A DNA stretch of 41,330 nt from NCBI GenBank assembly GCA_015233135.1, contig JADFYH010000026.1:1092-42421 (forward strand), given 5' to 3'. Origin of the DNA: Deltaproteobacteria bacterium (GTDB taxonomy: Bacteria > UBA10199 > JADFYH01). A model generated the notes under the pieces. That model did not search any database. It was not told the origin of the DNA and worked only from the letters and a program-made list of their open reading frames with translations. The translations under genes were made by a program, and so were the position numbers. Positions 1,819 through 28,837 of the stretch are shown piece by piece; position 1 is the first letter of the stretch; each line of letters opens with the position of its first letter.

Positions 1819-3375
1819 CTAAGCTTTCACCTTCCTCAAAATTCTCGCCCCACCCAACACTAAAATTGACGCAATCCAATATTCATACCTCACCCTGCCC
1901 TCTCCTACCTTAGGAGAGGGAGATAACGAGCACCCTCCACTGCTAGAAGCTGCTGCGGCAGGGGCTACTGTTACGCTTTGGTCGGTGGTCACGATTGAAG
2001 CTGGGTTACCGACCGCATTGTAAGTGCCATCGCTGGCGGCAAAGCGGTAGCTGTGGCTGCCTTCGGCTAGGGTGTGGGTGGCGTGGTAGATTTTGCCGTC
2101 GGTGTAAGTCGTGTCGGTGGAATCGGCTGCAGTCATGTCTATCGCTGTGCCATCGACGGTTACCGTGATTGAGCTTGGTGGCTCGTTATCGGCATCGGTG
2201 TAGGTGACTTGAAAGACGCCTGTTGTGGAATCTACCAAGGGGCTTGAGAGTGTGGGTTCTTTGTTGCCCAGTAATGTTACAATTTTATTGCTACCAGTGA
2301 CGGAGATGAGGAGGTCGGCGTGGCCATCGTGATTGAAGTCGTCGGTGACGATTTTGAAGGGGTTAGTACCCAGGTTTTGTGTGAAGATGGGAGTGGTGAC
2401 AAAAGTGCCATCCCCGTTACCTGCGTAAACTTGCAGCACACCTTGGTTTACAGCCCCATCTGCGTTGCAGATTACTGCAACATCATTTTTAGAGTCGGCA
2501 TTGAAATCGGCAATCACTAAATTATAGGGGCCATTGCAGACAGAGAGTGTTGTTGCTGTAAAGGCCGTACCAGTACCGTCGTTGAGGAGAATACTCAGGG
2601 TGTCATCATCGTGGTTCGCTACAATTAAATCTTGGGAAGTATTGTTATCTAACAAGCCGGCCTGAATACCTTGGGGGTTGTGGCCGACATCTAGGATGGC
2701 GATTTTGGGATAGGGGGGAATTGAATCACCAGCCCTACCGGAATAGATAAAAACTTTGTTTGTAGCAGTAGTCACAGCTACATCAGAATAGGCATCGGCA
2801 TTAAAGTTTGAGACAGTTAATTTATTTAGAGTAACTACAGTCCCTTCTTCGTCTCTAAATGATGGAAAAGCACCAGCACCATTGCCTTGGAAAAAGACAA
2901 GGAGATTATCTTCAATAGAAATAATATCCAAATTACTATCATTATTAACATCTGCATCAAAGATATCATTATTATGACTAGTACTCACATTAGTAGAATT
3001 AAAATGCACTTTGCCATTAGAGATATTCTGATAAGTCAATAAATCTGCATCAGTTAAATTTGAATAATAATAAATATCTAAATGGCTATCTTTATTAAAA
3101 TCTCCTGCAATTAAGTCATAGGGCGAAACAATAGTAGAGGTGTTTGGGTCTGCAATTAAAGTATAGGCTCCATTTGCCCCCAAACTCATTTGAGAAATCA
3201 CATTTTGAGTAGGAAATACAACAAAGGCATCCAAGCTTGTTGAGCCTGTGAAATTCCCAACCAAAACTCCTTGAGGAGCATGATCAAAAGCAGTATCGCT
3301 ATAACGAGTAAAATAGTTTGGTGCAGCAAAAGCATTCGAGGCTGTAAAAACTAACAAAAGAATTATTCTTTTCAT
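1819..3375 (-). CDS. Secreted FG-GAP/VCBS-repeat protein with C-terminal membrane anchor
   Basis: 518 residues. There is a signal peptide at the N-terminus (MKRIILLLVFTASNAFA), then repeated FG-GAP/VCBS units recognisable as DFNxDxxxD motifs (GDFNKDSHLDIYY, SNFNADAYSDVAV, ADFNADSKNDVAV, DDFNHDGHADLLI). These probably form a calcium-binding beta-propeller. A Big/cadherin-like segment (residues ~375-470) precedes the tail. The tail has a Cys motif (SSSGGCSL), a REP-derived insertion (SPSPKVGEGRVR), one hydrophobic helix (WIASILVLGGARIL) and basic residues. This order resembles Cys-motif/TM/Arg C-terminal sorting signals such as MYXO-CTERM or JDVT-CTERM; the exact class is uncertain. The start has a strong AAGGAGA site. 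Likely surface-exposed; ligand unknown. Confidence 0.82.
   Translation of the reverse strand: MKRIILLLVFTASNAFAAPNYFTRYSDTAFDHAPQGVLVGNFTGSTSLDAFVVFPTQNVISQMSLGANGAYTLIADPNTSTIVSPYDLIAGDFNKDSHLDIYYYSNLTDADLLTYQNISNGKVHFNSTNVSTSHNNDIFDADVNNDSNLDIISIEDNLLVFFQGNGAGAFPSFRDEEGTVVTLNKLTVSNFNADAYSDVAVTTATNKVFIYSGRAGDSIPPYPKIAILDVGHNPQGIQAGLLDNNTSQDLIVANHDDDTLSILLNDGTGTAFTATTLSVCNGPYNLVIADFNADSKNDVAVICNADGAVNQGVLQVYAGNGDGTFVTTPIFTQNLGTNPFKIVTDDFNHDGHADLLISVTGSNKIVTLLGNKEPTLSSPLVDSTTGVFQVTYTDADNEPPSSITVTVDGTAIDMTAADSTDTTYTDGKIYHATHTLAEGSHSYRFAASDGTYNAVGNPASIVTTDQSVTVAPAAAASSSGGCSLSPSPKVGEGRVRYEYWIASILVLGGARILRKVKA
1886..1921. repeat. REP-like palindrome inside the FG-GAP gene
   Basis: The copy TACCTCACCCTGCCC...TAGGAGAGGGAGA lies in frame inside the FG-GAP reading frame. 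It encodes about 12 residues between the GGCSL motif and the C-terminal membrane helix. Confidence 0.8.
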
Positions 3376-3393
3376 CCCAGAAATCTCCTTATT

Positions 3394-4548
3394 TTAAGGG
3401 CTTGTAAAATTAATCATTGTTTCTGCTTTATTGTACAAATCATTCGCAGTGCACTCAAAACGGTAGCTTCGAATGTCAGCAGAAGCAACAGAAACAGGGT
3501 AGTTAACAGGAAAACTAGTCCCAGAAACAAAAGAGGAACCACAAGCTGCACCCTCAATCCTACACCAACTCCCCGTCACCGTTTGTCCAGTTTCAGGACT
3601 TACCGGACAATCGCCCTGCAAAGTCACAGTTGCTGTTGGCGTACAACCCGTTGTTCCAGGTCTGCAAGAAAGTCTTCCATCACCGATGGTTTCTATCGTT
3701 GCCTCCGGCCTCACATGCACACTAAAGGGCATTGTCGGATAAGATACTGATGTATTATTGGTCTCACTACTCTCCACAAGACTATTCTCCGTATCCACCC
3801 TTACCTTTGCCGTAAAATCATTTCCAAAATCAGTGGCCGCAAAAGGAATGTCTGCTGTACCGATCGTAGATGCACCGGCTGCAATGCTCGCGATGTCTTG
3901 GGGGGCAGAGCTATAGAGTAAATCTGTTCCCTTGTATACATCCACAATCGCCTTACTAGCTGCGGCTATTGCAGTGCCGTTATTTGTCACTGTAAAGTTT
4001 ACGGCGATGCTGCTCCCCGCTACTCCAAAGGCACATCGCGTTGTATAAGTAGTGCTTGTACCACTCGTCACAGGTGCTCCACAAGATTGCGGATAGGTAA
4101 TCGAAGTTACCGCTCCACTCAAATCCACATGAGTCACCGCAAATGTAAGCGTCGTAAATACAGAAGTATTGCTGGCCACGCTGCTATCCAGCTCGGTTAG
4201 AGCTTGATTGTCATTCACCTGTACTGCAAATTGATAAGTGCTGTCCATCACTTCTATCGGCAATTGAAAATCAATTTGCTCATCGCTGGTCACCAAGGTT
4301 GACGTTGGATTTCCAGCGAGCGCATGGGTGCTTAATGCGATAATCGTAGTGAGGGGTCTCGATGTGGCTGGGATGAGGGCTGTATTTTTTATCCAGAGCA
4401 CCGCTTCTACCCCTACCGGCACATTGGCAGATGAAGTGCTTTTGAGCCTGTATTTTAATCGATAATGTTTCCCCGTCACCAAGGGGTCTGCAGCTGTCAG
4501 GGCTCTTTCTGTGGTTTCTGAAAGAATTTCATACAGTAGGGCCACCAT
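3394..4548 (-). CDS. C-terminal part of the frameshifted CARDB-repeat lipoprotein
   Basis: The 384-residue frame that continues the long lipoprotein after a one-base shift. The join is clear by comparison with the preceding repeat. The upstream frame ends VKHIELQADGG..., this frame goes on LLYEILSETTERALTAADPL, and together they match the previous repeat (VKHYDLEVVEGTVSLYPAASET...). Removing one base from the GGG at 4539-4541 restores a single frame. It holds the rest of that repeat, another CARDB-like repeat (HVDLSGAVTSITYP..., NFTVTNNGTAIAAASKA) and a Cys-rich tail (six Cys in the last ~100 residues). The nominal ATG at 4548 has no independent ribosome-binding site or signal peptide, so it is not an independent gene. 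Confidence 0.75.
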   Translation of the reverse strand: MVALLYEILSETTERALTAADPLVTGKHYRLKYRLKSTSSANVPVGVEAVLWIKNTALIPATSRPLTTIIALSTHALAGNPTSTLVTSDEQIDFQLPIEVMDSTYQFAVQVNDNQALTELDSSVASNTSVFTTLTFAVTHVDLSGAVTSITYPQSCGAPVTSGTSTTYTTRCAFGVAGSSIAVNFTVTNNGTAIAAASKAIVDVYKGTDLLYSSAPQDIASIAAGASTIGTADIPFAATDFGNDFTAKVRVDTENSLVESSETNNTSVSYPTMPFSVHVRPEATIETIGDGRLSCRPGTTGCTPTATVTLQGDCPVSPETGQTVTGSWCRIEGAACGSSFVSGTSFPVNYPVSVASADIRSYRFECTANDLYNKAETMINFTSP

Positions 4549-13831: not shown

Positions 13832-14446
13832 TTACTTAAGAGTCATCTGTGGATCACTCAAATTAACCCCCTTGATCATTTGGGGATCGCTGAGGTTTAT
13901 TTTGTTGAGCATCTGAGGATCACTGAAAGCTGAGGCTTTTACTATGCCTAAATTCTTTCCATTGATCATCTGCGGGTCACTCAAGTTCACACCCTTAATC
14001 ATCTGGGGGTCACTGAGATTCACTCCCTTGATCATTTGAGGATCACTGAGAGCTGATGGGGCTTTTCTCACCACGCTTAAATTCTTTACATTAATCATTT
14101 GGGGATCACTCAAATTAATCCCCTTGACGTTTACTCCCTTGATCATTTGAGGGTCACTGAGAGCCGAGGCCTTCACCATTTCAAGGTCATTTGAATTCAC
14201 TTCGTTAGTTATTTGGGGATCACTCGAATCATTCTCATTGTAGACCTCTTTTAATTCAACCTCTTCCCTCTGGATAGCCAAGACAGTTTTTAACTGTTCC
14301 AGGCAACTTTGTAATTGCGCTACTTCCAGCTGATCTGAAGCTTGAAAGCAGACCTCATCCACCTCACCCGATTCTGCTGCTTGCAAAGAACCCGCTGCAA
14401 GCAAAAAAAAGACAAAGACAGCACCTATGAAAAAAGATCCTTTCAT
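13832..14446 (-). CDS. Secreted SDPQ-repeat protein (unrecognised family)
   Basis: 204 residues from the ATG at 14446, chosen because AGGGGG lies 5-6 bases upstream and a clean signal peptide follows (MKGSFFIGAVFVFFLLAAGS). The mature N-terminus has two Cys about 17 residues apart in a helical, acidic segment (VCFQASDQLE..., SCLEQLKTVLAIQREEVELK). The rest is nine copies of an SDPQ unit whose best-conserved form is the 11-residue LSDPQMIKGVN, some spaced by 8-10 extra residues (NLSVVRKAPSA, NLGIVKASA). I know no family with this repeat. It could be a short solenoid or a substrate with repeated sites (S-D-P, K). It lies between two kinase genes and 175 bp downstream of the kinase-FGE gene on the same strand. 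Confidence 0.8.
   Translation of the reverse strand: MKGSFFIGAVFVFFLLAAGSLQAAESGEVDEVCFQASDQLEVAQLQSCLEQLKTVLAIQREEVELKEVYNENDSSDPQITNEVNSNDLEMVKASALSDPQMIKGVNVKGINLSDPQMINVKNLSVVRKAPSALSDPQMIKGVNLSDPQMIKGVNLSDPQMINGKNLGIVKASAFSDPQMLNKINLSDPQMIKGVNLSDPQMTLK
13835..14227. repeat. Coding repeats of ~33 bp in the SDPQ protein gene
   Basis: On the plus strand the phrase GATCATTTGGGGATCACT, or close variants, recurs nine times. In the tightest parts the period is 33 bp. The DNA-level similarity is as high as the protein-level similarity, which suggests recent expansion by slippage or unequal recombination. Confidence 0.85.
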
Positions 14447-14553
14447 GTCGCCCCCTTTTTTTAACCCAGGAACATCCAAGGTTATTCCTAAGTCTAGGTG
14501 CAATGGGCATACCAGTAAGGGCCTATCAAAATTGTTATAGGGTAACAAAATGT

Positions 14554-14577
14554 GCTGGGGCAATTTTCAAGCCCAGC
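14554..14577. terminator. GC-rich hairpin after the kinase-FGE gene
   Basis: GCTGGGGC-AATTTTCAA-GCCCAGC, a 7-8 bp stem with one bulge, lies 45 bp past the stop of the kinase-FGE gene. The A7 run follows it on the plus strand, so on the minus strand the T run precedes the stem. It is therefore not a classical Rho-independent terminator for the gene it follows. Confidence 0.3.
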
Positions 14578-14621: not shown

Positions 14622-17411
14622 CTACAATGCTAAAGAAAGTCTAAAGGCCCCGTTGTAAAGCAGGGCGGCGGGGCGGCGGGCGCTCCAGGTTCTTGAAGCG
14701 GGGCGAAAATAATTCCCCCAGGGTGTTCGCACACTGCCTCCCACCATCATGACACAACCTTTTTCCCCCAGGCTACGAGTGAACTGCCTCACATTTCCAA
14801 CTACATCGAAAACTCCATAAAGGGAAACATCTGCATAACTATCTTCCTGAATAGGATGGGTTCCTACTGCCACAGGATAAGTGGTTTTTCTGCGATCGGC
14901 GTGAATTGCCCGGCTATTCATTTTATTGGGATCAAAACGGTAACCCCAGGGATAAATCCATTGAAAACCATTTCTGGCAACCAGTTCATATTCGTCCGCA
15001 CTCATAACCTGGTATTTTTTACCCGGGGCAAGGCTGTCCATTCTCCCTCTCCAAGCGGCATAAGCCTCTGCAGCATCCGCTGTAATTGAATGAATGGGTT
15101 GCTCATTAAAAACAGGTTCCTCACTTTGGTAGTGAGTGGACCCATGAGGGTCTAACAAGCTCAGTCGTTTTTGCCGCAGATCAAAGCGCAGTTTCCAGTG
15201 AAAAGGAGCCGTTTCAAGAAACTGGGAAAGCTGTGCCCAAACATCCTCTCCTGTCCAAGGCGTTTCCAAACGCGGAGTAGCTCGGGGAATAAAATTCAAA
15301 AGAGCTTCCAACTCTGCCTGGGCATCAAAGTCTAGTTGCCGTTGAAGAAGAAGATTCACATCTGCAACAAGCGAAGCGATAAATTTTTTATATTGGCTTA
15401 CGGTCACCGGAGTTCGAGACAGGGCAAAGCTCTTATGCAAACAGGCGCGGAGAGGATAACTGAACACCGCCCAAGGCTCTCCATCGTGATAAAAATCGTG
15501 CCCTAGAAAAGCCTTCCCCCTGGGAATCACAACAAGATCCGAAGCAAGAGAAGCTTCTCGATAGAGTTCAAGTTCCAAGTCAAGCCTTGCAGGCAATCCA
15601 GCTTCTTCCACTTCTAAAGCTCCCGCCACATCGGCATAGGTTAAATGAAAGGGTTGATCAATCGCAACAAAGCCTTCTCCTTCAAAATGAAGTACATAAT
15701 ATCCCGCTGGAAGTCTTATGCCTTGCAGCTTTCCCAGGCTTCCTGTCCAAACAGTTCGTGTTCCCTGAAAATCTGGATAAACCCTTTTGATCTCAATCTG
15801 TGAACGGAAATTTTGAAGCGCCGGGCTATCTCTCACAATCTTTAACTGTACGCTGGCTCCCATTTCCTGCACGGCCCGACTTTTATAAGAAGGAAGGGGC
15901 AATCCTGAAACTTCTTCCCAATCATATTTCTGCACCAGTCGTCTCAGGTGCTCCCGTTCTGCATGAGACAGCCGATCCTCCTCTTCGACCAAACGAGAAA
16001 AAGCGAGAGTTGTAATAATTTCTCTCGCCCTCTTGGGCATGGCTTCTCCCCCAAAACTAATTTCAAGATAGTCGATCAAATCTCTCCCCCCCTGATGCCA
16101 AGATTCTTTCAAGTCTTTCAATTCATAGAGGGGATCATTGTATCTTTCCCAAAACCCTGGAGTAACTTGTTCATCATAGCTAAAATTTTCCCACGTTTTA
16201 TGAAAGGCAATGGCCTTCTCGTCGTGAGCCCTGCGCAGCTCCAAGAGTTCATCCAGGCGTGCCTCGGCGTAACACATGAGCACCGCCTCACGGAGTTCCA
16301 AGGCACTGGAATATCGTTTTGCAGCGTCCGGATGAAAGGCCTTGCGGGCAACTTCATCCAGCTTATCCAGGATTCTGGAATTGCGATAATCCTTTTCAGG
16401 AAAGAGGTCGCGAAAATGAGGGACAGCTTCATAGTTTGCCGGAGTCACCAACCACAACATTTTTGGATTTCCATACACATCCAGCGCCAGCACCTGTCTT
16501 GCTTCACCCTTTGAGAGATCTCCTGTCCGATAGGAGGCATAGGCAGGAAAGCCTCCACTCATCCATTCGTAAAGGATACAGCCCAAGGCAAAGACATCGG
16601 TTTGAGCAGGGTTTTTCATCCCTATCCCCAAGGGTGTTTCAGGGGCAATATAACCCGGAGTGCCCGTAAAGCTCCCGGGTGCTGTCATTCGACGGCTACT
16701 TACGGCTATTCGAGAGATCCGAGAATCCTCCGAACTACCATCATTATTGCGCCGAGCCTCTTCAAACCCGAGGCAAATCCCCCAATCGAGGGGGACCGCG
16801 TTACCATTCATCACTTGCACATTTTCAGGTTTTAAATCGCGATGAATAATGCCACGCTGATGGGCGGAATCAACGGCCAGACAAAGGCTGGCAAAGACCC
16901 CAATTTTTTTCAGAACCTCGTCGTCTGCAAACGAAGGGCTTCCATTCTCTGCTCTGAGAATGCTCTCCATATTCTTTCCCAACATTTTTTCCATGACGGA
17001 AATGGGAACCGCTTCGCCTGAATTAAGTGTTACCTCAAAAAAGTCATAAACAGCCACCGTATAATGATTGTCCAGCCTTGCTGCTACCTTGATTTCATGA
17101 CGAATTCTGTCGAGATATTTTTTATTACTTAATATTTCTACAGTAGGAACCTTGATCACCGCCAAACGCTCCAGCTTGGTGTCGTAGACTTCAAAGACAT
17201 CGCTGCTTCCCCCCTGACCCAGCAGAGAAACAAGGATATAACGATCGTCAGGACCCACTCGAGTAGCAGCAGGAATAGTCCCTTTTCTAAAGAGGACATT
17301 GTCTCTATCTAAATGAATGCTGTACCTAACAGACCTGTCGGTCATGGACACCATACCGGCGACAAGGGCACTACCGAGAGCAGAGGCTAAAAAAAAACAC
17401 CCGAGCAACAA
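14622..17411 (-). CDS. Serine/threonine kinase fused to a sulfatase-modifying-factor (FGE) domain
   Basis: 929 residues if started at the TTG at 17411; ATG codons at 17354 or 17345 are alternatives, and none has a strong ribosome-binding site. A hydrophobic N-terminal segment (LLGCFFLASALGSALVAGMV) precedes a Hanks kinase: Gly loop LLGQGGSSDVFEV (~58), Lys in AVIKVP (~87), HRDLKPEN (~188), DWG in place of DFG, GTPGYIAPE. The middle (~400-640) is unassigned, partly PEGA-like. Residues ~645-929 form an FGE-sulfatase/SUMF1 domain: IPRGKAFLGHDFYHDGE, LSRTPVTVSQYKKF, AAEAYAAWRGR, VFDVVGNVRQFTRS, GGSVRTPWG, GAFRLSLAL. Kinase-FGE fusions are known in bacteria with many STPKs. The 5' end overlaps the 3' end of the giant gene by 25 bp across a T9 run (see findings). 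Confidence 0.88.
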   Translation of the reverse strand: MLLGCFFLASALGSALVAGMVSMTDRSVRYSIHLDRDNVLFRKGTIPAATRVGPDDRYILVSLLGQGGSSDVFEVYDTKLERLAVIKVPTVEILSNKKYLDRIRHEIKVAARLDNHYTVAVYDFFEVTLNSGEAVPISVMEKMLGKNMESILRAENGSPSFADDEVLKKIGVFASLCLAVDSAHQRGIIHRDLKPENVQVMNGNAVPLDWGICLGFEEARRNNDGSSEDSRISRIAVSSRRMTAPGSFTGTPGYIAPETPLGIGMKNPAQTDVFALGCILYEWMSGGFPAYASYRTGDLSKGEARQVLALDVYGNPKMLWLVTPANYEAVPHFRDLFPEKDYRNSRILDKLDEVARKAFHPDAAKRYSSALELREAVLMCYAEARLDELLELRRAHDEKAIAFHKTWENFSYDEQVTPGFWERYNDPLYELKDLKESWHQGGRDLIDYLEISFGGEAMPKRAREIITTLAFSRLVEEEDRLSHAEREHLRRLVQKYDWEEVSGLPLPSYKSRAVQEMGASVQLKIVRDSPALQNFRSQIEIKRVYPDFQGTRTVWTGSLGKLQGIRLPAGYYVLHFEGEGFVAIDQPFHLTYADVAGALEVEEAGLPARLDLELELYREASLASDLVVIPRGKAFLGHDFYHDGEPWAVFSYPLRACLHKSFALSRTPVTVSQYKKFIASLVADVNLLLQRQLDFDAQAELEALLNFIPRATPRLETPWTGEDVWAQLSQFLETAPFHWKLRFDLRQKRLSLLDPHGSTHYQSEEPVFNEQPIHSITADAAEAYAAWRGRMDSLAPGKKYQVMSADEYELVARNGFQWIYPWGYRFDPNKMNSRAIHADRRKTTYPVAVGTHPIQEDSYADVSLYGVFDVVGNVRQFTRSLGEKGCVMMVGGSVRTPWGNYFRPASRTWSARRPAALLYNGAFRLSLAL

Positions 17412-20400
17412 GAAGAGAGATGCCCGGCCACAAAACTAGCGGCCTCGGAGACCGAAGAAGCGAGGTAAGTGGCAAGTCCAACGGTGAGTGGAAGCATTAT
17501 CCCCCCCACTGTACGAAGAAACCCCGTGCGCACGATGCGTGCAGGAGCAGCTGGGCCAGCGCCGGGAGGAGTAGATCCAGGGCTTGTTGGGTCGACAATA
17601 TTGAACTTAAGCGGTCTGCCATTCACAGTAAGTACAAAAGAATCACCTAATTCAAAACTATGTTCCCCGTGTTGATGATGGAAAAGAGGGATCGCTCTGT
17701 CCTCTTCACCACCTTTCAAAAAGACTCCTTCTCTTACCGCCCAAGGATTAACCGCCCTCAATTTGTAGACCACCGCACTGTCTTGCATTACAGCAAGCAA
17801 CTCAAAGTTTTGGAGTGTTTCTCTCTCTGAATGATCTTCTTCCACAAATTCGCTTAAGCGTTTGGTTTCCCCTGTGGGAACCACACAATCAATCCCCTTA
17901 GAGCATTTTACGGCTTGAGGGGTATAGAGATCATAGAAAACACCTGCCACCGACAGTTTTAAGATATCCCCATCCGAAAATGAAACTGGGGATTGCTTTA
18001 ACTCTTCTAAGCTTACCCTTCTGTTTTTTCCATTTGGAGATTGTATACAGACAAAAAGATGATCTTCTATATTTTTTATAAAGGGGTATGGATGTGGAGC
18101 CAGGCTTAATTGGTAAGTCTTGCCAGTGCGTTTAAGGCTGACCCGTCCCTCAAGAGTAGAGGCCATCCCATCAATTACTCCTACGCCTCTTAAGCCCCCA
18201 TCTCCCCACTCTTCCCCTCTCAACTTATCAAGACCGACTTCTCCATTCTCTTCTAACTTAAGATCTACTCGAGTATGGCCAGGGAAAATGCTTTCAATCA
18301 TTCGCCCCTCTACCAATATATAAACCTTGCTTACTTCTCCTGTAAACTCTTCCCCCGCAACACCCAACCCACCCATATCTTTTATACCCGCTCCCTTTTC
18401 ATTTAAGAGATGAACCTCAACTCTTCCATCCATATATTTTAAAATGATGGGGATATCTGTTCTTACCCCACCTTCACGCTGAATATAATAATGCACAGCA
18501 TATGGATTAGCAGTCTGATAAAATGATGATATTCGTGAAATAGAAAATTCATTGCCTTCAGGGAAATCACCTCCTCTACCGAGAGAACACGCTTGATTTA
18601 ATGGAACCTGAACTCTATGATGTCGATCCCCATAATCCACAACGCCTGAATCCACCACAGCCAGGAGATCCCTTGCCAGAGCCACATCAAAGACGCCAGT
18701 CTTTCCTACTTGGCCGATGACCCGAGCAAAAACATCCGTCCCTGCTTCGATGAGTCGGCTTAATTGGGTACTGACAGCAGCAACAGTAGCTACTGAATCG
18801 CCCTCTGCAGCACCACCCCCCTTCGGCCCACTGTTTTCTTCTACCAGCCCCCCCAGACAAATTCTCACTCGCTCACCTCGAATCACCAGATCGAATTTGT
18901 TTCCTTCCAGCAGCTGGACAATTCGGGGTTTTAAGGGATAGACCAATTCTTGATCATCAATGCGACAAATCACTTGAGGCCTTTCCCCTGCAAATTGAGG
19001 ATCAAAGCCCTCTCTAAAGCGCAAGGCGCAAGCCTTTCCATTTTCTGTTGTAGAAATTTCCAATTGTTTCAAAATAGCCTCATGCCTGTGCCCAGGAATC
19101 ACCTGATCCAAAGTCACACGGGCACCAGGCAACAGCGTAAAATTGTAAACGGGAATATCTTCTGAGGCTGCCGGTACTAGATGCTCGGCAGCCGCGGAAA
19201 GTCTCGCCGACAGTTCCTCTAAGCCTCTTCGCAAAGCAGCTGCGATATCAACACCTTTATTCCACAATTGCCTTACCCCTGCAGCCATTACATCTCTAGG
19301 CAACTGATTCGCGCGCGCTATCACTTCCTGCAAGGCTTCCAATCTTCGCTCGGGCACACGCCTTTTATAGGCGGCCTTGGCGCTTCTTATTTCCTCAATC
19401 AACTTCGCTCGTAACTCAGAGGGCTGGATCACCTGGTTTACAGAAGCCACCGCAAGGGCACGCTCCATTCCATTGGCGGCATTGTAAATGGCGGCCTCTT
19501 TGTTGACGTACTCTTCAAGAATGGGTTGCAACACAAGCCCTCGCTGCACGTCTTCCAGCTTGGCCTCTCCTTTTTTCACACGCTCATCTGCCTCTGCCTG
19601 GGCACGAATGGCATCGGTCACCAAACCCTGCCAATTTTTCATACGTGCATCCCGTTCGGCAGCCTTGAGTATTTCTCTTCCGTAAACCACCAGGGCAACT
19701 CCACGCCCATCCAGCACTTGTTCTCTGGCTCCTTCCAAAGCCAACACACGGAAGGCCTCCTGATCTTCAGGAGCAGCCAGTTGCCGATCGACCACCACTT
19801 TTCCACCGCCGGTACAGGCCCCAAGATTCACCATGACTTGAGGCCCCTCAAACAAGACATTGGCCGTTCCGTATTTGCCGCCGTTGGTCAATTGACGTTC
19901 CTGCATCGCAAGACCAATGGCCATAAAAACCAGATTGTCATAAAGATGAACCAAAGGAAGTCGCCCATCGGCCTTGCCAATGGCCCTCATAATTTTTGCA
20001 GAATCACTCGGCGCAAGCACCCCAGGTTGAAACACCAACATCACCGGCTGCCCGCCAATTTGAGCAATAGCCGCTACTGTTTTTGTAGCCATGGGTTCTT
20101 TGTTTTTAATTTTCAAGGCATCATTTTGAAGATGAAATTCTCCCTTGTAATCTTTCCATAAAAAGAGAGGGGGCGGGGCATCCTGATCGATTAAGGCTCG
20201 AAGGAAAGGAAGAAAATCTTCCTGGGGCATTGGAGCACCTAATTTTTTCATCAGGTCGCCAATGTTTCCCTGTTCAACACCATTCACCATCCACGGAGTT
20301 TGGGTCACATCGCGATCTACCGGATCTTTGCTGCGTCGTCTGCTCACAATCTGACCATTGCGTTCCACTGCCGTATAATAATGCAGCAGCAGTAATTGTT

Positions 20401-23400
20401 TGTGAGCCTCCAGTCGATTGGGTGCAAAAAGTTGCGCTTCACCATTAGGACCATGCACCCCGTTGTATCCGGCCATATCTTGAATGCCGCCCGGAAAGGT
20501 TCTTTTGACGATGCCAGGCAGTTGGGTCACCGAGGCAGTTGGATTTGCTGCGGCTGCAAAGGCTTGGGGGCCAGTGAGGGCCAGACTTCCACGAGGAGTC
20601 ATGATCACCACCCCACCGGTAGCCTCCGCGATGGCAGCAATCGAAATATCATAAGACATGATACCGATACTGAAATCATCCACCACAAAATTCATGCGTA
20701 CTCGGTGTTTACCAAGCTCTGCATTTTGCTTAATGCAATTTAAAACAATTTCTCTAAAGGTGGCACTCACCGCATCCAGCACCTCTACCCCGGAATCCCT
20801 GTCAATAAAGGCCCCGGCGGAGGCCACATGCCAATCGATATCCAAACCATTTTCTGCCGCATAGTGAATGGCCGCAATAATGCGCGCCGTTTCTTCATGG
20901 CCAATAGAGCCTTTGGAGGGGTCATGCGAGAGATCGCCAAGGATACTCAAACGGCGAACGGGAAAGCCCAGGCCCATGTCGTTTTCCATCAAACCTATCA
21001 CCACCCCCGCCTTGTTTCGTCCTATTTCTCTGGCTTGACCGTCGGCATTCACCGCAGGAACAAGTTGCCCCGGATGATTGTAATCAATTTTTCCTGTGGA
21101 TGGATTGATCGGTGTCGCACTGCCCTTCACCACATGTTCTAGATCCAGTTCCACGAAGCGGGTGTTCCCCTTAAATGCTCTAGGATGTTCTCTAGCCAAT
21201 GCACTGATGGCGGCATCCATGTGCATAGGCACATGATAGGCAAAGACACCCCCAGTCGCCTGAACTTTTCTAGCTCTCAATTCCACGGGTGTCGCCGTAC
21301 TCACCTTAGATTCGTCCAAAAACTTATAGGCAATCTCCCCGAGGGGCCTATTTGTTTTTGTCAGCGATGCAACTGTACTGGCATCACTCCAATTCACCAT
21401 GACTCTTTTCGACTGAAGCTCAGCCCCTGCTGCATTGGCAAACAAGGCCTCTTCAAGCGCTTTCACCTTCACTTCAAAACGATAGCGCGTAGGGTTGGTA
21501 ATCGTAATTAAAACCTCGCGATATTTATTGGAAGTTTCAGAAACCCTAATACGACCACGCACCACCACTTTTTCAAGATGAAGTTTTCTCAACAACTCCC
21601 AGTGCTGGGTGGCCAAGTTTTCAACATAAGCGACAGTCTCGTCATGAGTCATGTCCAATTCGGGAAGTATATTCATAAACAAGCGATTCCACTTCGCCGA
21701 TTCTTTCGCATTATCCGTCAACGATTGTTCCATCGCCCGAATACTTTTAACAAACAACTCCTCCAATTTTGGAATACCCACTACACCCTGTTCATTACGC
21801 AACACCTGGGCACGCCTCACCACCAAGTTTCCAAAAAGACGCACATCTCCCTTCACCTCTTTTTCTTTTCCCGAACCATAATACAAATGCACATCACGGT
21901 CTGAATTGACCTGATCACGTCTTAAATCAAAAAGAGAAAGGCGTTCAATTTCAATTAAACGATTGGCCGTGAAAGGCTGAAGAGATCTGAGATTAGTGGC
22001 TTCTACAAATTTTTGGGATAGGCCTTGGCCATTGGGTTCTCGAACGAAGGTATAATAAACAGGGTAAGCATTCCCCTCCGTAAAGGCAACCGTCACTCGG
22101 CGAAGATTGGACTCACTGACCCAGCTGGAATCGCTGTTCAAACTTTCGGCAAAGCTTTGCAGCCATTTTGCCTCCTCAAAGCCGGCAGGCTTCGCCATCA
22201 TCAATTCCACCACATTGCTGCCGCAATTTTTACAATCCGAGTTTCTCAGCTTCAAGGTGTGCCCAATATCATGCAAATCTTGGATAGCTTTTTCGGGGCT
22301 TGTTTTGACACGGGCAAAAGAACGTTGAATTCGTCTGGCATCCCCATTCCTGCCCTCCACTTTATAAAAGTTCACCACCAGGGCATCTGCATCCAGATGT
22401 TTTATGCTCTCCAGATGATGCCCACGAAATTCGCGCCGGGTTTGAATGTTTTCAGCCAGCTGTCGAGCTTTGGGACTCAAAGCCTTGTTATTATAAAGTG
22501 CGGTCAAAGGCGTGGTGAGTGATTCTGCAAGAGTTACAATCTGTTTTACAAACTGCCTTTTTTGCTCCATATCAAAACCCTTGGCAATCAACTCAAAAAG
22601 ATGACCCAAATTTTTGAGAGATTGGGTTCTGTCTTTTTCATCCAGGCCTCTGCTAAAATTCTCAAACAGTTGTACAGCCAGATTTGCATTATTTTCTGCG
22701 GATTCCCCGGCAAACAACCTCACACGCGAGGCATTTTCAAAACCCCAGGTGGCGACGCCTTCCGGAGAAAGGCTGATATCCACTTTTAATCGTGCAGGGC
22801 TTCCACCCTTCGCTGCCCCAGCAACTTCATATTCCCAGTTATAAAGCCCCTGACGAGCCGCAAGCAAAGGCACGGCTTCCGATTGAAAATAATCACTATT
22901 AAATCCTCCCGAAAAATATTCGATGGAAGGGGGCTGAAACAACTCGGAATGTCTGTTATAATGAACGCAGTAAACCATCTCCCCGGCAGGCAAACCCGGA
23001 ACAGGATCAGAGGCCACATAAACTGTTTTATGCCCCGAGGCCTGACGAATACGAATATTTTTTAGATCACCGATACTGTTGAGCTGGAAAGTAATTTCAT
23101 TCTTTGGATCTCGCTGAAGCCTTGCCAACTCTTCTCTGAATGCCCTGTTTTGCTGAAAAAATTTGGCCAGGGTTCCTAGTAAAGGATCCGAAGTTCTGAG
23201 GGGATCGGAAATAAAAGCTTCGAGGCGTTGTTGCAGCAGATCAATATTTTTGGCAGTGGGAAGTCTAATATTCGCCACACATTCCAGGTGTAAGCTGACC
23301 GCTGATCTTAATTTCAAGGCTCTTTTTTCTTTGTAACGATAACTGCTGCGATCTTCAAATTCTTCACGGGGAATTGGGCGCCCTCTGCTTTGCAAGGCCG

Positions 23401-26400
23401 CTTTTCCCAAGGCTTTCTCGAGGCCATTGCTTGCGTAATGATTATCGTATTCTCCGGTTCGCACCGCTTCGCGCGCCAGAAATCTCAGTTGGCCCAAAAT
23501 ATCCGCCTTGGCTTTTTCAGACTCAAAGACGGTTTTGGATAAGGCCTGAGAGGCTCTTTGAAGCACCTGCAATCTTTTTCCGGGATGATAAACCACAAGC
23601 TTGGCAAACATGGCGTCGAAGAAACCGAAAATTCTATCGCCACTCGCGATAGAGGTCTCCACATGAATTCCTTCGCTCTCAGGAAATTCCAAGCGATTCA
23701 CTGTTCCGGGGGAAGGGGCATTTCTACCGCGATAAAGACTGTTGGGATCTGCTGCTTTCAAACGAACTTCCACCGCTGACCCATGATTTTCAATACTCTC
23801 CTGAAGGTAAGAAAGGGGAAGACCTCGACCAATGTCGATAGCATCTGAAATAAGATCGGCCGTTTCGTCCTCTCGTCCGAGAATTCGGGTCACGAGTTCC
23901 GTCACGCGATGTTCCACCTGAATTCGCGCGTTCACCTCCATGGCAAAAAAATCACCGGTATCGGGATCCACCATGAATTCTACCGTTCCATGTCCGGTAT
24001 AATTCACGGCCTGCGCGGCCTTGCGCACCGCTTCATACATCTTTTCTCTTAAACCAGGGAAACGAGCAAAAATTTCAGCCGGATAAATTTCAATGAGTTT
24101 TTGATCCCCTTCCTGAAGCGTACATTCTCTTTCACTGAGTATTCCTGTGTTTCCAAAACGGTCGCGAATAATTTGAAATTCCACATGCTGAAAACGGGGA
24201 ATAAACCGTTCTGCCAAAATTCTTTTGCTTTTACCTTCTTCCTGACAGGTTCCAAATTCATTCACTAATTCTTTTAGAGTATAGACCGTCTGCTGACCTT
24301 TTCCACCACCGCCTCCGACAGCTTTGAGGCGAGCCCCAAAGGCCAAGGCAATCTCTTCGAAACTTTCATTTCTCTCAATGTTTGAGAGCACCGCCAAAAC
24401 CCTTTGCCTATCTTCAGATTTAAAAAATCCAATCTCCAAAAGTTCTCTCGCTAGCGACAAGGCATTCTCGTGTCCCACCTGAGTCCCTTGCACAACGGGA
24501 ATCCCCGCTTCGATAAAGGCCTGCTTGGCTACATCTTTATCGCCCGCACGAAGCATACTTTTCACAGAAGGGCCAAATAAAATCAACCCCTCCCCATTTA
24601 ATGCCGTCACCAGCTCATGGGCTTCCGATTTGTAACCGTAGCCTGGATGCACCGCCTGACAATTGGAACGCCTGGCTTCCAGGGCGATATGATTTACATC
24701 TTGATACAAATTATTGATCAAATTCTCATCCGTAACGACAGGGTCACCACTACTGATCAAATGTTCCACCTGCCCTGCAGCATCCATTTCTTGCCTCAAG
24801 GCCTCGGATAACTTCGCAGGTGCTTCTGCCACCACCACAGGAACAAAGCCCTGGTGTTGACGAATCGCACGAACAGCATCGGCCGTTCCAAAGCTGGTAT
24901 CAATGGGGGTAGTGGAAGTGTATTTAAAATCTTTTGCTCTTTTTTTGCTGTCGGACTCCGGAGCACGCAGACGCACAAACACCCTGGCCTCGGCGCCAAA
25001 CTCCTCAACGGCCTTTCTCACCCAGGCATGATTCGCCTCGGCTTCATGCACCATGATCACCGGAGTCATTCCCTGCTTATGTACACTGCGCGCAATACGC
25101 ACGGCAATTTCACCGCGATGGGGGATAAACACGCGTTCAACATTAGGATTGGTTTGGATATTTAAACCTGGATTTAAGATCGCCTGAAGATCATCCAGGC
25201 GTTGAAACAGAACCTTTCTTTGTTTGGCGTCCAGACCTTTATCTGTAATACCGGCCAGGGCACGGCGGGCATTATCGTTTGCCGCCTTGGTTTTAAAATT
25301 TTGTTTTTTAAACCTTTCCCAAGCAGTGGAGGCACTCTGGCTTGTATCGGTGAGTCGCGTATAAATCTTTCTCTTGAGGGCTAGGGCTTCCCCTCTGACA
25401 GCTGAGGCAGAGGATCCCCTACGCCCCGCAGCCTGCAGCCCTTCCACGCCTTCCCCTTCCACTCGAGACGCCGCGTCCACTCCGGAAATTTCCAAACCCA
25501 GTTGCGCCGCTGCACCTTCTGGAGAATTTAATTTTGTTGCTGTCAGGAGTTCTGCAGGCACTGCAGGATTTTCCAAACCCAGAGGATTTTTTGGATCGGA
25601 TTTTCCATCCGAGAAAAAGCCTTGGGAAGTTCCTTCATCTCTACCTGAACCTGAACCCGCCGCATCTTTTGCAGTCACCCGCGCACGCGCTGCAGACGCC
25701 AATCTCTCGGGCTCTGCTTGGGCATGGCGATTCAGCGATTCTTGATCTCGAACTCTCACTTGGGCCGCTAAGGCTTGTTGGATGGCCAAGCCCTCTCTCC
25801 CTTGAGGGGAGAGAGTTGGAGAGAGGGCGACCGCGGGTGCACTCGGGGTCACCCTCTCCCTGCCCTCTCCCGTCGAGGGAGAGGGGAAAACTAAATTAGA
25901 ATGTATAGAAAAAGTTTCTGCAGAGGGATAAGAAGCTCGACCCTCTCTCCCTTGAGGGGAGAGAGTTGGAGAGAGGGGGGTCGCAGGTGCACTCGAGATC
26001 CCCCTCTCCCTGTCCTCTCCCGTCGAGGGAGAGGGGAAAACTAAATTAGAATGTATAGAAAAAGTTTCTGCGGAGGGATAAGAAGCTCGACCCTCTCTCC
26101 CTTGAGGGGAGAGAGTTGGAGAGAGGGGGGTCGCGGGTGCACTCGAGATCCCCCTCTCCCTGTCCTCTCCCATCGTAGAATTATCAATTGCATCCACTGG
26201 CTCTCTCTCTCCTCCCTGCCGCCCCTGAAAATCCCTCACCTCTCCCAAAACGCCTTGCACTGCCTCTAAATCCCGATCCAAGAAAGGTCTCAAATAAAAA
26301 GCCAGCTGCTCCGGATTTCCCTCCGACAAGGCTCGAATCCCTGCCAGGGTATGTGCCTCAACGCCCAGTTCCAAGGCATTCTGCAGCAGGCGCAAGCGCT

Positions 26401-28837
26401 CTGAACTGGAGAGGCCTAAATCCGCAATCGATCTTATCAAGCCCTGGGCATTCAAATTTCGTGTCGCTTCATAAGTAAACGCCTCCATTTGCAGATCGCG
26501 CAGATCAAAGCCCGCAGGCCTTTGTTCGCCTGAACTCCGATAAGCTGGGTGCTCTGTTTCAGAACCATGAAGATGAAAAAGTTCTCTCAGGTCCACTTCG
26601 TGCCCATTCATTCGTTCGCGCACTTCGGCCAATAGTTCTTCGTGGCTGCAACGTCGCGAAAGATCGATTTCACCCGTCAAATAATGCCATAAACCTTCAT
26701 GCGAAGAAGCCTGTGCAGCAGGCACTGGGCGCCGCTCCAAAGCCAGCAGCAATTCCGTCATCCTCAAACCTCTTTCGCCAAAAGGAGGAATAGCAAGCTC
26801 ACGCAGAAAAGGCTGAAAACGTCGAGCCTCTGATAATAGATGATGCCGCCCTTCCACCCCATGCATCCAGTGCCCCGCTCCTGGAACCCCTTCAATCAAG
26901 CCTCCGCCGGCCTTCATCTTGAGATCTTCAATCACATTCCCCAAAAACCCTAAACTCCAGGAAGGTTTCCTCGCTTCTTCTTCCAATCCTAAAAATTGAT
27001 TCACCGTCCCCGAGGCATAAAAACTCCCAGGACCTGTCAGCAAATAATCAAGCACCCATAAAGAACGATTGCTCAACGCCCTCATCGCAGAAGACGAGAC
27101 ATTCTCAAACAAAAGCGTACGCAGCGGACGAGCTAAGGCCTTGAACGCTGCCCCCCAGCCATGACAGGTGGCAAAGGTAATCATCATGCTGGCAAAACCT
27201 TTTGCCCCTGCATAAGGCGTCACTTCATGGCTTAAAAAATTTCTATAGGCATCTTGATGCAGAGGGTTCTGGCTGTCCGCATACGCAAAGGCCCCGCCTA
27301 CTCCCATTCCCGCCACCGTAAAACCCGCGGCCTCTGCCGCACAGGGAAGTAAAAATCCAAGGGCCGCCCCCAAACGGGCAATGCCCATGGCCTTGGTGGC
27401 CACCGACAGGCCGCGACCCATCGCAAAGGGAATCAGAAAATGGCTGTAGGTCTGTAAGACATTGTGCCCCAGGCCGGGAATGAAGTTTTGCAACTCCCCA
27501 AGCACGGTATTGGCTTGGGCCTTGAGTTCCAGAGTGGCTCGTAAGCCCGCAGGCAAGCTCCCCAGGCTGTGGCGTTGTTCCAAAAGTCCGGCCAGCTGGA
27601 TGCCGCTCTGTGTATAGCCCCGGTCTTGAGTTCCCAGGCGCAAGGCCAAATCGTAAATCTGCGCATCCACTTCGCCTTCCCCCACCCTCAGCGTCTCTTC
27701 ATTGGCGGCCACAAAATCGATGAGGAGTTGAGCCACGGTACGCGTATCCGAGCTGTCGTGAAAGAAGTGAGCCCGCATCCAATTTTCTAGGGCAAAAGAT
27801 TCCGGAGCCGTGTGAGATAAAAAATCCTGAACCTGCACAAAACCTAGAGCCGCCCGAGTATCCGTCAAAACAGAAGCTAGGGCCTCGCTGAGCGTGGCAT
27901 GTTCGTGATGTTCCAAATATTGCGATACGGCTTGAAGATATGCCTGAATTTCGTGATCAAGCCCTTCTTGCGAAGCATGATGTTCTTGAACTTGTTTCTG
28001 CGCCCATTCGGAGAGTACGGTCTGCAGCACTCCTACCAAAAGCCCGCGCCGAGAGAGTTGCAGGGATCCTTCGAGTTGATCTCTCAGTTCGGTGGCCAAC
28101 ACGTTCTCGGGATGGGCCTGTACCTTGGCTCGCAGGCGACTTAGGGCCGCTTCAATGTGTTGGGGTGTTTGCTCGGAGGCGTAAAGGCCTCTCAAGATAG
28201 GCAGAATGGACGCCAGTTGCGCCAGTCGAGTCTGATCTTCGGCACTACAAAAGCGGGCCCCTCGGCCCCGATGGGCTAAAGGGTTTTCTGAAACATAGCC
28301 TGCCACTCGATCCAGATGCTGCAAGGCCTTCTCATGATCCCCGGCCTGGGCCCAAACACCCGCCATGGCCCGTTCTGCCGAGGCCAAGGCCCAGGGGCTG
28401 GTCCAGCTTTGAGTCTCGCGTTCAAATCGAGCCAAAAGTTCTGTCACCCGAGCCGTTCGCCCCACAGCGGCCAAACGCGTAGCGGCTTCTATCAGGGCAT
28501 TCAGCTGGGTTTGGTTGAGACGAGATCTGCCTTGCAGATTAATCCCCGAAAGCGATTGATCTACCGCGACTTCTACTCCATGAATTTGCTCCGCGCTGGG
28601 ACCTTCGTGTTCTGTCTGGGCAGGGGTTTCAGAGGCTAATAGCCGCTGGCCATTCAAACGCCTCCATAAATTTTGAGTATTGTGTTGGAGTGCCATCCCC
28701 ACTTCACGAGCCAAATTGGGCGCTGGAGTAGGATTTGCGGTATCAGTGCCTGAATGAGCATGAGGTACTGTAACTGGCCCCACCGTTGGAATATGAGGAA
28801 TGGCGTTTTCAGACGAAGGAATACGTGCTGAGGTCAT
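17387..28837 (-). CDS. Giant protein with eukaryotic-type acetyl-CoA-carboxylase core (BC, central and carboxyltransferase domains)
   Basis: 3816 residues; ATG at 28837 behind AAGGGAG. Residues ~1-460 are alpha-helical, TPR-like. Residues ~465-560 are hydrophobic (ARLGAALGFLLPCAAEAAGF) and probably membrane-associated. At ~890-1015 there are 150-bp REP-derived tandem repeats. Residues ~1230-1760 are a biotin carboxylase: HRGEIAVRIARSV, HPGYGYKSE, LKAVGGGGGKGQ, QKLIE, AMEVNARIQVEH, PSPGTV. Residues ~2000-2520 resemble the ACC central domain (IEIERLSLFDL, DVHLYYG, NRLFMNILPELDM). Residues ~2520-3155 are an ACC-like carboxyltransferase (GVVIGLMENDMG, LALTGPQAF, GACTGGGKVVVD). Residues ~3160-3780 are beta-rich with GDxFxLxVxG units, then a hydrophobic end. 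No MKM biotin-attachment motif is visible. The typical eukaryotic ACC is ~2200-2350 residues; the core here is ~1925. Enzyme activity is unproven. Confidence 0.8.
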   Translation of the reverse strand: MTSARIPSSENAIPHIPTVGPVTVPHAHSGTDTANPTPAPNLAREVGMALQHNTQNLWRRLNGQRLLASETPAQTEHEGPSAEQIHGVEVAVDQSLSGINLQGRSRLNQTQLNALIEAATRLAAVGRTARVTELLARFERETQSWTSPWALASAERAMAGVWAQAGDHEKALQHLDRVAGYVSENPLAHRGRGARFCSAEDQTRLAQLASILPILRGLYASEQTPQHIEAALSRLRAKVQAHPENVLATELRDQLEGSLQLSRRGLLVGVLQTVLSEWAQKQVQEHHASQEGLDHEIQAYLQAVSQYLEHHEHATLSEALASVLTDTRAALGFVQVQDFLSHTAPESFALENWMRAHFFHDSSDTRTVAQLLIDFVAANEETLRVGEGEVDAQIYDLALRLGTQDRGYTQSGIQLAGLLEQRHSLGSLPAGLRATLELKAQANTVLGELQNFIPGLGHNVLQTYSHFLIPFAMGRGLSVATKAMGIARLGAALGFLLPCAAEAAGFTVAGMGVGGAFAYADSQNPLHQDAYRNFLSHEVTPYAGAKGFASMMITFATCHGWGAAFKALARPLRTLLFENVSSSAMRALSNRSLWVLDYLLTGPGSFYASGTVNQFLGLEEEARKPSWSLGFLGNVIEDLKMKAGGGLIEGVPGAGHWMHGVEGRHHLLSEARRFQPFLRELAIPPFGERGLRMTELLLALERRPVPAAQASSHEGLWHYLTGEIDLSRRCSHEELLAEVRERMNGHEVDLRELFHLHGSETEHPAYRSSGEQRPAGFDLRDLQMEAFTYEATRNLNAQGLIRSIADLGLSSSERLRLLQNALELGVEAHTLAGIRALSEGNPEQLAFYLRPFLDRDLEAVQGVLGEVRDFQGRQGGEREPVDAIDNSTMGEDRERGISSAPATPLSPTLSPQGREGRASYPSAETFSIHSNLVFPSPSTGEDRERGISSAPATPLSPTLSPQGREGRASYPSAETFSIHSNLVFPSPSTGEGRERVTPSAPAVALSPTLSPQGREGLAIQQALAAQVRVRDQESLNRHAQAEPERLASAARARVTAKDAAGSGSGRDEGTSQGFFSDGKSDPKNPLGLENPAVPAELLTATKLNSPEGAAAQLGLEISGVDAASRVEGEGVEGLQAAGRRGSSASAVRGEALALKRKIYTRLTDTSQSASTAWERFKKQNFKTKAANDNARRALAGITDKGLDAKQRKVLFQRLDDLQAILNPGLNIQTNPNVERVFIPHRGEIAVRIARSVHKQGMTPVIMVHEAEANHAWVRKAVEEFGAEARVFVRLRAPESDSKKRAKDFKYTSTTPIDTSFGTADAVRAIRQHQGFVPVVVAEAPAKLSEALRQEMDAAGQVEHLISSGDPVVTDENLINNLYQDVNHIALEARRSNCQAVHPGYGYKSEAHELVTALNGEGLILFGPSVKSMLRAGDKDVAKQAFIEAGIPVVQGTQVGHENALSLARELLEIGFFKSEDRQRVLAVLSNIERNESFEEIALAFGARLKAVGGGGGKGQQTVYTLKELVNEFGTCQEEGKSKRILAERFIPRFQHVEFQIIRDRFGNTGILSERECTLQEGDQKLIEIYPAEIFARFPGLREKMYEAVRKAAQAVNYTGHGTVEFMVDPDTGDFFAMEVNARIQVEHRVTELVTRILGREDETADLISDAIDIGRGLPLSYLQESIENHGSAVEVRLKAADPNSLYRGRNAPSPGTVNRLEFPESEGIHVETSIASGDRIFGFFDAMFAKLVVYHPGKRLQVLQRASQALSKTVFESEKAKADILGQLRFLAREAVRTGEYDNHYASNGLEKALGKAALQSRGRPIPREEFEDRSSYRYKEKRALKLRSAVSLHLECVANIRLPTAKNIDLLQQRLEAFISDPLRTSDPLLGTLAKFFQQNRAFREELARLQRDPKNEITFQLNSIGDLKNIRIRQASGHKTVYVASDPVPGLPAGEMVYCVHYNRHSELFQPPSIEYFSGGFNSDYFQSEAVPLLAARQGLYNWEYEVAGAAKGGSPARLKVDISLSPEGVATWGFENASRVRLFAGESAENNANLAVQLFENFSRGLDEKDRTQSLKNLGHLFELIAKGFDMEQKRQFVKQIVTLAESLTTPLTALYNNKALSPKARQLAENIQTRREFRGHHLESIKHLDADALVVNFYKVEGRNGDARRIQRSFARVKTSPEKAIQDLHDIGHTLKLRNSDCKNCGSNVVELMMAKPAGFEEAKWLQSFAESLNSDSSWVSESNLRRVTVAFTEGNAYPVYYTFVREPNGQGLSQKFVEATNLRSLQPFTANRLIEIERLSLFDLRRDQVNSDRDVHLYYGSGKEKEVKGDVRLFGNLVVRRAQVLRNEQGVVGIPKLEELFVKSIRAMEQSLTDNAKESAKWNRLFMNILPELDMTHDETVAYVENLATQHWELLRKLHLEKVVVRGRIRVSETSNKYREVLITITNPTRYRFEVKVKALEEALFANAAGAELQSKRVMVNWSDASTVASLTKTNRPLGEIAYKFLDESKVSTATPVELRARKVQATGGVFAYHVPMHMDAAISALAREHPRAFKGNTRFVELDLEHVVKGSATPINPSTGKIDYNHPGQLVPAVNADGQAREIGRNKAGVVIGLMENDMGLGFPVRRLSILGDLSHDPSKGSIGHEETARIIAAIHYAAENGLDIDWHVASAGAFIDRDSGVEVLDAVSATFREIVLNCIKQNAELGKHRVRMNFVVDDFSIGIMSYDISIAAIAEATGGVVIMTPRGSLALTGPQAFAAAANPTASVTQLPGIVKRTFPGGIQDMAGYNGVHGPNGEAQLFAPNRLEAHKQLLLLHYYTAVERNGQIVSRRRSKDPVDRDVTQTPWMVNGVEQGNIGDLMKKLGAPMPQEDFLPFLRALIDQDAPPPLFLWKDYKGEFHLQNDALKIKNKEPMATKTVAAIAQIGGQPVMLVFQPGVLAPSDSAKIMRAIGKADGRLPLVHLYDNLVFMAIGLAMQERQLTNGGKYGTANVLFEGPQVMVNLGACTGGGKVVVDRQLAAPEDQEAFRVLALEGAREQVLDGRGVALVVYGREILKAAERDARMKNWQGLVTDAIRAQAEADERVKKGEAKLEDVQRGLVLQPILEEYVNKEAAIYNAANGMERALAVASVNQVIQPSELRAKLIEEIRSAKAAYKRRVPERRLEALQEVIARANQLPRDVMAAGVRQLWNKGVDIAAALRRGLEELSARLSAAAEHLVPAASEDIPVYNFTLLPGARVTLDQVIPGHRHEAILKQLEISTTENGKACALRFREGFDPQFAGERPQVICRIDDQELVYPLKPRIVQLLEGNKFDLVIRGERVRICLGGLVEENSGPKGGGAAEGDSVATVAAVSTQLSRLIEAGTDVFARVIGQVGKTGVFDVALARDLLAVVDSGVVDYGDRHHRVQVPLNQACSLGRGGDFPEGNEFSISRISSFYQTANPYAVHYYIQREGGVRTDIPIILKYMDGRVEVHLLNEKGAGIKDMGGLGVAGEEFTGEVSKVYILVEGRMIESIFPGHTRVDLKLEENGEVGLDKLRGEEWGDGGLRGVGVIDGMASTLEGRVSLKRTGKTYQLSLAPHPYPFIKNIEDHLFVCIQSPNGKNRRVSLEELKQSPVSFSDGDILKLSVAGVFYDLYTPQAVKCSKGIDCVVPTGETKRLSEFVEEDHSERETLQNFELLAVMQDSAVVYKLRAVNPWAVREGVFLKGGEEDRAIPLFHHQHGEHSFELGDSFVLTVNGRPLKFNIVDPTSPGSTPPGAGPAAPARIVRTGFLRTVGGIMLPLTVGLATYLASSVSEAASFVAGHLSSCCSGVFF
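17389..17397 (-). promoter_or_regulatory. T9 homopolymer at the giant-gene stop: possible slippage site
   Basis: On the coding (minus) strand the giant frame reads GGT GTT TTT TTT TAG. The kinase-FGE frame is open through the same bases (TGT TTT TTT TTA GCC). One extra T (transcriptional slippage), or a -1 ribosomal shift, would join the frames into one ~4.7-thousand-residue protein. It may instead reflect a miscounted homopolymer in the assembly. Confidence 0.45.
25791..26172. repeat. Three near-identical 150-bp tandem units containing REP-like palindromes, inside the giant gene
   Basis: Units start at 25791, 25941 and 26091 (period exactly 150 bp = 50 codons); the third is partial. Each contains two palindromic blocks (CCCTCTCTCCCTTGAGGGGA... 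and CCCTCTCCCGTCGAGGGAGA...) and a shared AT-rich spacer. In the giant frame they encode a Ser/Pro/Arg-rich linker (LSPTLSPQGREG, VFPSPSTGE) between the helical N-terminal region and the carboxylase core. Copies differ at only a few positions, so the duplication is recent. Confidence 0.9.

Follow-up and report, generated by a model that had tools for sequence, protein, structure and literature searches.

Eukaryotic multidomain ACCs, including those of yeast, human and Chaetomium, carry the BC, central and CT regions in that order in one chain, and a multidomain ACC operates through a tethered biotin arm. A eukaryote-type multidomain ACC that is complete, functional and essential has been described in the bacterium Saccharopolyspora erythraea (SACE_4237; PMC6491548). 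The gene examined here, from a Deltaproteobacteria genome, predicts a protein of 3816 aa that, by description, resembles SACE_4237 as a bacterial single-chain carboxylase with a central domain and a tie to fatty acid synthesis (PMC6491548) but, unlike that complete enzyme, has no carrier. Its features, all on the minus strand, are listed below by position in the window (the whole 41,330 nt stretch of DNA that was analysed).

17387-28837, minus strand: whole gene for the 3816-aa ACC-like protein, a single open frame
26603..28525, minus strand: N-terminal module, residues ~105-745 (blastp to the fungal-type FAS I of the same genome)
25791..26240, minus strand: three in-frame 150-nt tandem repeats within the gene, in the linker before BC (unit LSPTLSPQGREG...)
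23420..25144, minus strand: biotin carboxylase (BC) domain, residues ~1232-1806, catalytic residues kept (Pfam, solved-structure match, residue check)
22727..23419, minus strand: unrelated stretch at the place of BT-BCCP-AC1-AC2, residues ~1807-2037 (no biotinyl domain, no clade-conserved Lys)
21398..22726, minus strand: rest of the ACC central region, about AC3-AC5, residues ~2038-2480 (Pfam, structure match)
20468..21160, minus strand: CT N-domain, residues ~2560-2790 (Pfam, alignment)
19658..20110, minus strand: CT C-domain, residues ~2910-3060 (Pfam, alignment, structure match)
20051..20062, minus strand: QIGG at the canonical RLGG, residues 2926-2929 (CT alignment)
19913..19945, minus strand: LYDNLVFMAIG at the canonical NWRGFSGG loop, residues 2965-2975 (CT alignment)
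17390..19330, minus strand: C-terminal extension, residues ~3170-3816 (no family match)

Pfam identified Biotin_carb_N, CPSase_L_D2 and Biotin_carb_C, ending at residue ~1800, followed by ACC_central (2175-2457) and Carboxyl_trans (2643-3156). In a search of solved structures, the top matches to the BC were biotin carboxylases, and those to the central and CT regions were fungal, yeast and human ACC, eukaryotic ACC being the best structure match for the AC3-AC5-like region and the CT. A CT domain is present by both methods. However, AC1-AC5 are incomplete, as only positions 424-701 of the 726 in the ACC_central profile are covered and 230 residues separate the BC from the AC3-like part. The protein thus differs from eukaryotic multidomain ACC in having no BT, BCCP or AC1-AC2, in its changed CT loop and Arg equivalents, and in extra N-terminal (~1200 aa) and C-terminal (~650 aa) parts. 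The end of the gene is overlapped by a frame for a Ser/Thr kinase and FGE-sulfatase fusion (window 14622-17411), and a protein with repeated 'LSDPQMIKGVN' units is encoded at 13832-14563.

A sequence-only reading of this DNA had seen no MKM-type biotinyl-lysine motif and an unrelated sequence at residues ~1770-2000, where a diverged biotinyl domain was now sought. Biotin_lipoyl (Pfam) was detected after the BC in 5/5 related proteins of canonical layout and in 0/4 tested members of the clade of the ACC-like protein, in which the 381-aa post-BC stretch gave no match even at E 10. A biotinyl profile built in this analysis matched 6/6 canonical-layout relatives, all six of which had been included in building it, at E < 1e-29, while, even with filtering disabled and a cut-off of E 1000, it reported nothing in the ACC-like protein, and it gave only E > 0.3 in four clade members. 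No match at the gene was found in a whole-genome biotinyl scan, and no C-terminal biotinyl domain, as in the single-chain long-chain acyl-CoA carboxylase, was present anywhere in the protein. MK/KM pairs occur only at residues 640, 1599, 2863 and 3066, with 0/4 in a biotinyl-like context. Profile-profile comparison found the post-BC stretch of the clade to be unrelated to that of biotinyl-bearing relatives, and the clade-invariant Lys sit in the BC, at 2423 and at 2955, with none in the 1807-2037 stretch. The absence of a biotinyl site was therefore borne out by Pfam, the custom profile and the MK/KM survey, and neither profiles nor conserved Lys revealed a diverged domain in 1770-2000. The unrelated stretch is also real, though its bounds shift to ~1807-2037, with residues 1770-1806 still part of the BC. 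A hidden biotinyl domain was rejected on the Pfam, custom-profile, profile-profile and Lys conservation results, though the linker (pLDDT 62) could hold a very divergent fold.

An AlphaFold2 model of residues 1800-2180 was weak (pLDDT 62), with much of 1807-2037 low, and residues 2038-2180 of this model matched the AC3 domain of the human and yeast ACC structures, with a best Z of 7.1 over 105 residues. As AC3 is already matched by 2038-2180, ~230 residues stand in place of BT, BCCP, AC1 and AC2 in this protein.

Besides the source genome, five others, which belong to a single different family, yielded clade members in a profile search of the class. When one genome per species was scanned with two short peptide patterns, the only matches were three loci, each in a 'Deltaproteobacteria bacterium' MAG. 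Literature searches turned up nothing specific on the ACC or FAS of this clade. As the clade spans five other genomes, the carrier loss is not an assembly error; assembly error or frameshift was rejected as a cause on the clade-wide loss and on other frames, which gave no rescue. Six multidomain ACCs from the same class that do bear a BCCP (L029, L030, L031, L036, L061 and L037) share the layout, and in L036 and L061 a module of the sister-clade type is found at the N-terminus, but, in contrast to the ACC-like protein, all six carry a biotinyl domain. In L037 (L037:5465-12622), a biotin protein ligase is also fused at the C-terminus. Of the five other clade genomes, four (G015, G021, G027 and G042) were found to encode, in addition to the clade member, a multidomain ACC-like protein that has a biotinyl domain; in G021 its gene is fragmented. 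The clade was monophyletic in the BC tree (split 100) and in a CT tree built without L034, which was out of frame in a CT alignment (98), where the sister of the clade was the biotinyl-bearing L037, suggesting that the absence of the carrier probably reflects a loss and not a failure to acquire it.

In the BC, 15/17 inspected positions were identical to the E. coli residues (K116, K159, E201, H209, E211, Q233, K238, E276, E288, N290, R292, Q294, V295, E296 and R338), the length and residue numbers of the E. coli reference sequence being as expected. The two changes are H236 to D and L278 to M, and position H236 is variable in BCCP-bearing relatives too. R292, Q294, E296, R338 and K238 are retained by all clade members. 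The BC motifs are thus intact, as the sequence-only reading had held, and their retention across the clade would be hard to explain without biotin carboxylation. Most likely, the BC is active with a carrier in trans.

In the CT alignment, the canonical RGFSGG is replaced by LVFMAI (2969-2974) and the canonical RLGG by QIGG (2926-2929), so that both substitutions reported earlier, LYDNLVFMAIG and QIGG, were seen again, and other reading frames did not restore the motif at the GFSGG site. QIGG is common to all clade members. However, VFMAI is peculiar to the source genome, the sister sequences having GFNGD or GFNAD, and its ACC-like protein is the only clade member in which the first glycine of GFxx is absent. 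The BCCP-bearing relatives have GFSGG, GFMPR or GFDGS at this loop. Two Arg residues have substrate-side roles in the canonical CT. These are S and L in the ACC-like protein, in which the CT loop is without the motif glycines and both Arg equivalents, and a short insertion is present in CT-N. The predicted CT structure (pLDDT 41.7) was left out of the evidence.

Of the catalytic parts of the protein, the CT C-domain has changed fastest, with 38-41% identity to the sister sequences compared with 49-53% in the BC. Among sites invariant in four sister sequences, two of which are nearly identical, 50/98 in CT-C and 69/249 in BC are changed (Fisher p 5e-5). Relative-rate tests against three outgroups gave mixed results. 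Identity in CT-C among the other clade members is 71-87%, above that of their BC, indicating that the CT is under constraint in the sister genomes. On the best reading, the CT of the ACC-like protein would be remodelled or failing.

The carrier-less chain, the altered loop and faster-changing CT-C, and an N-terminal module in common with FAS I would all suit the pseudo-carboxylase raised in the earlier reading, taken here as an acyl-CoA/ATP scaffold or sensor for the fatty acid synthase that performs no carboxylation. This term misfits the BC half because the residues matching E. coli include the biotin-handling ones, and the catalytic residues, biotin- and bicarbonate-specific ones included, are kept in every clade member. 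It may fit the CT, where QIGG is clade-wide, the first GFxx glycine is missing only here and BCCP-bearing relatives also depart from GFSGG. With the catalytic BC residues kept and CT-C strongly conserved across the sister genomes, we consider a pseudo-carboxylase unlikely overall. Altered chemistry, in which the BC would make carboxyphosphate or carboxylate free biotin or an acceptor on the new 230-aa stretch and the CT would use a different donor or acceptor, would account for the clade-wide replacement of BT-BCCP-AC1-AC2 and QIGG, the missing equivalents of both canonical CT Arg and the CT-N insertion. However, the new stretch shows little conservation (19-22% identity between the ACC-like protein and other clade members) and has no invariant Lys, and L037 combines similar CT changes with a biotinyl domain and fused biotin ligase, making such chemistry improbable.

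Two free-standing BCCPs, of 210 and 130 aa, were found in the source genome, both encoded in operons that also include BC and CT genes; a single biotin ligase is present as well. The search for free-standing accB, accC and accD proposed in the earlier reading yielded two BCCPs, two BCs and three acyl-CoA-carboxylase CTs, with no separate AccA/AccD-type subunits. Neither BCCP is an orphan, because each is accompanied in its operon by a BC and a CT, and no carrier docking site was identified in the ACC-like protein. A carrier within FAS I was ruled out, as the FAS I locus gave no biotinyl match. The proposal that the carrier is encoded elsewhere is possible, and the free BCCPs, the ligase and the kept biotin-handling BC residues favour it. 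The third CT stands alone (G000:C6:81008-82507), with no BC or BCCP match adjoining. This excess of CTs over BCs and BCCPs, with the relaxed CT-C of the source genome, would fit use of the BC half alone, charging a BCCP from which a separate CT, such as the lone one, moves the carboxyl while the protein's own CT is a relic. However, that scheme is drawn from gene counts, and either operon could supply the orphan CT with a BC and a BCCP; we consider the scheme improbable.

The same genome carries a 5655-aa open frame with fungal-type FAS I domains (L070; G000:C6:45539-62503), which scored 1313 bits to a fungal alpha subunit versus 718 to mycobacterial-type FAS I. Here a FAS I of the fungal type is encoded by a bacterium, and ketoacyl-synthase matches elsewhere in its genome were weak. 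Residues 105-745 of the ACC-like protein are homologous to the N-terminal part of this FAS I (blastp E 3e-43, 26% over 687 columns), and the full module, which is not clearly transmembrane, was found genome-wide in these two proteins only. Partial matches to it occur in two giant proteins (L090 and L091, in G000:C38 and C50). The shared module suggests that the ACC-like protein and FAS I probably cooperate in making fat.

In G015 and G010, proteins with the same N-terminal module flank the carrier-less ACC, one of them having ketoacyl-synthase domains, and a further module-bearing neighbour in G010 has a MaoC-dehydratase domain. In G015, the BCCP-bearing paralogue (L061:2759-15154) lies directly upstream of a FAS beta half, and the two have a common N-terminal module. 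Blastp found no direct link between the modules of such genomes and that of the ACC-like protein; we infer that they are the same from their position and company. The FAS link is not universal, as no FAS_I_H match was obtained in G010 despite the clade member there.

Taken together, we lean evenly for and against the fullest explanation, that the ACC-like protein is a derived, BCCP-less relative of eukaryote-type single-chain ACC, tied to FAS I, with a trans carrier for its BC and an altered CT. It would sit with FAS I through the common N-terminal module as part of the malonyl-CoA supply of the latter, and its BC would charge biotin on a separately encoded carrier, one of the two free BCCPs. 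The CT would complete carboxyl transfer in the sister clade, whereas in the source genome, where the biotin side of the CT appears much changed, transfer may be performed by another CT or by none. A trans carrier is favoured because a biotinyl domain is present in 6/6 relatives and absent here and in the tested clade members, and because the genome encodes free BCCPs and a biotin ligase and the BC residues are kept. The tie to FAS I follows from the restriction of the full module to the two proteins and from the module-bearing neighbours in G015 and G010. Against the explanation stand the lack of an orphan BCCP, the loss of the CT loop glycines and both Arg, and the 50/98 changed CT-C sites. 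Only tentatively, an assembly may be envisaged in which the common module joins the fungal-type FAS I and the carrier-less ACC, the carboxyl passing via a trans carrier or without protein-bound biotin.

The clade-wide carrier loss and the N-terminal module in common with a fungal-type FAS I both lay beyond the view of the sequence-only reading. What is new is a bacterial eukaryote-type multidomain carboxylase that, judged from its sequence, has lost its carrier. A clade with an intact BC and no arm would show how multidomain carboxylases can split again, and it offers a naturally occurring case for testing whether a carrier can be supplied in trans. That a bacterial ACC-like protein and a fungal-type FAS I have a module in common is relevant to how the eukaryotic ACC/FAS pair may have originated or spread.
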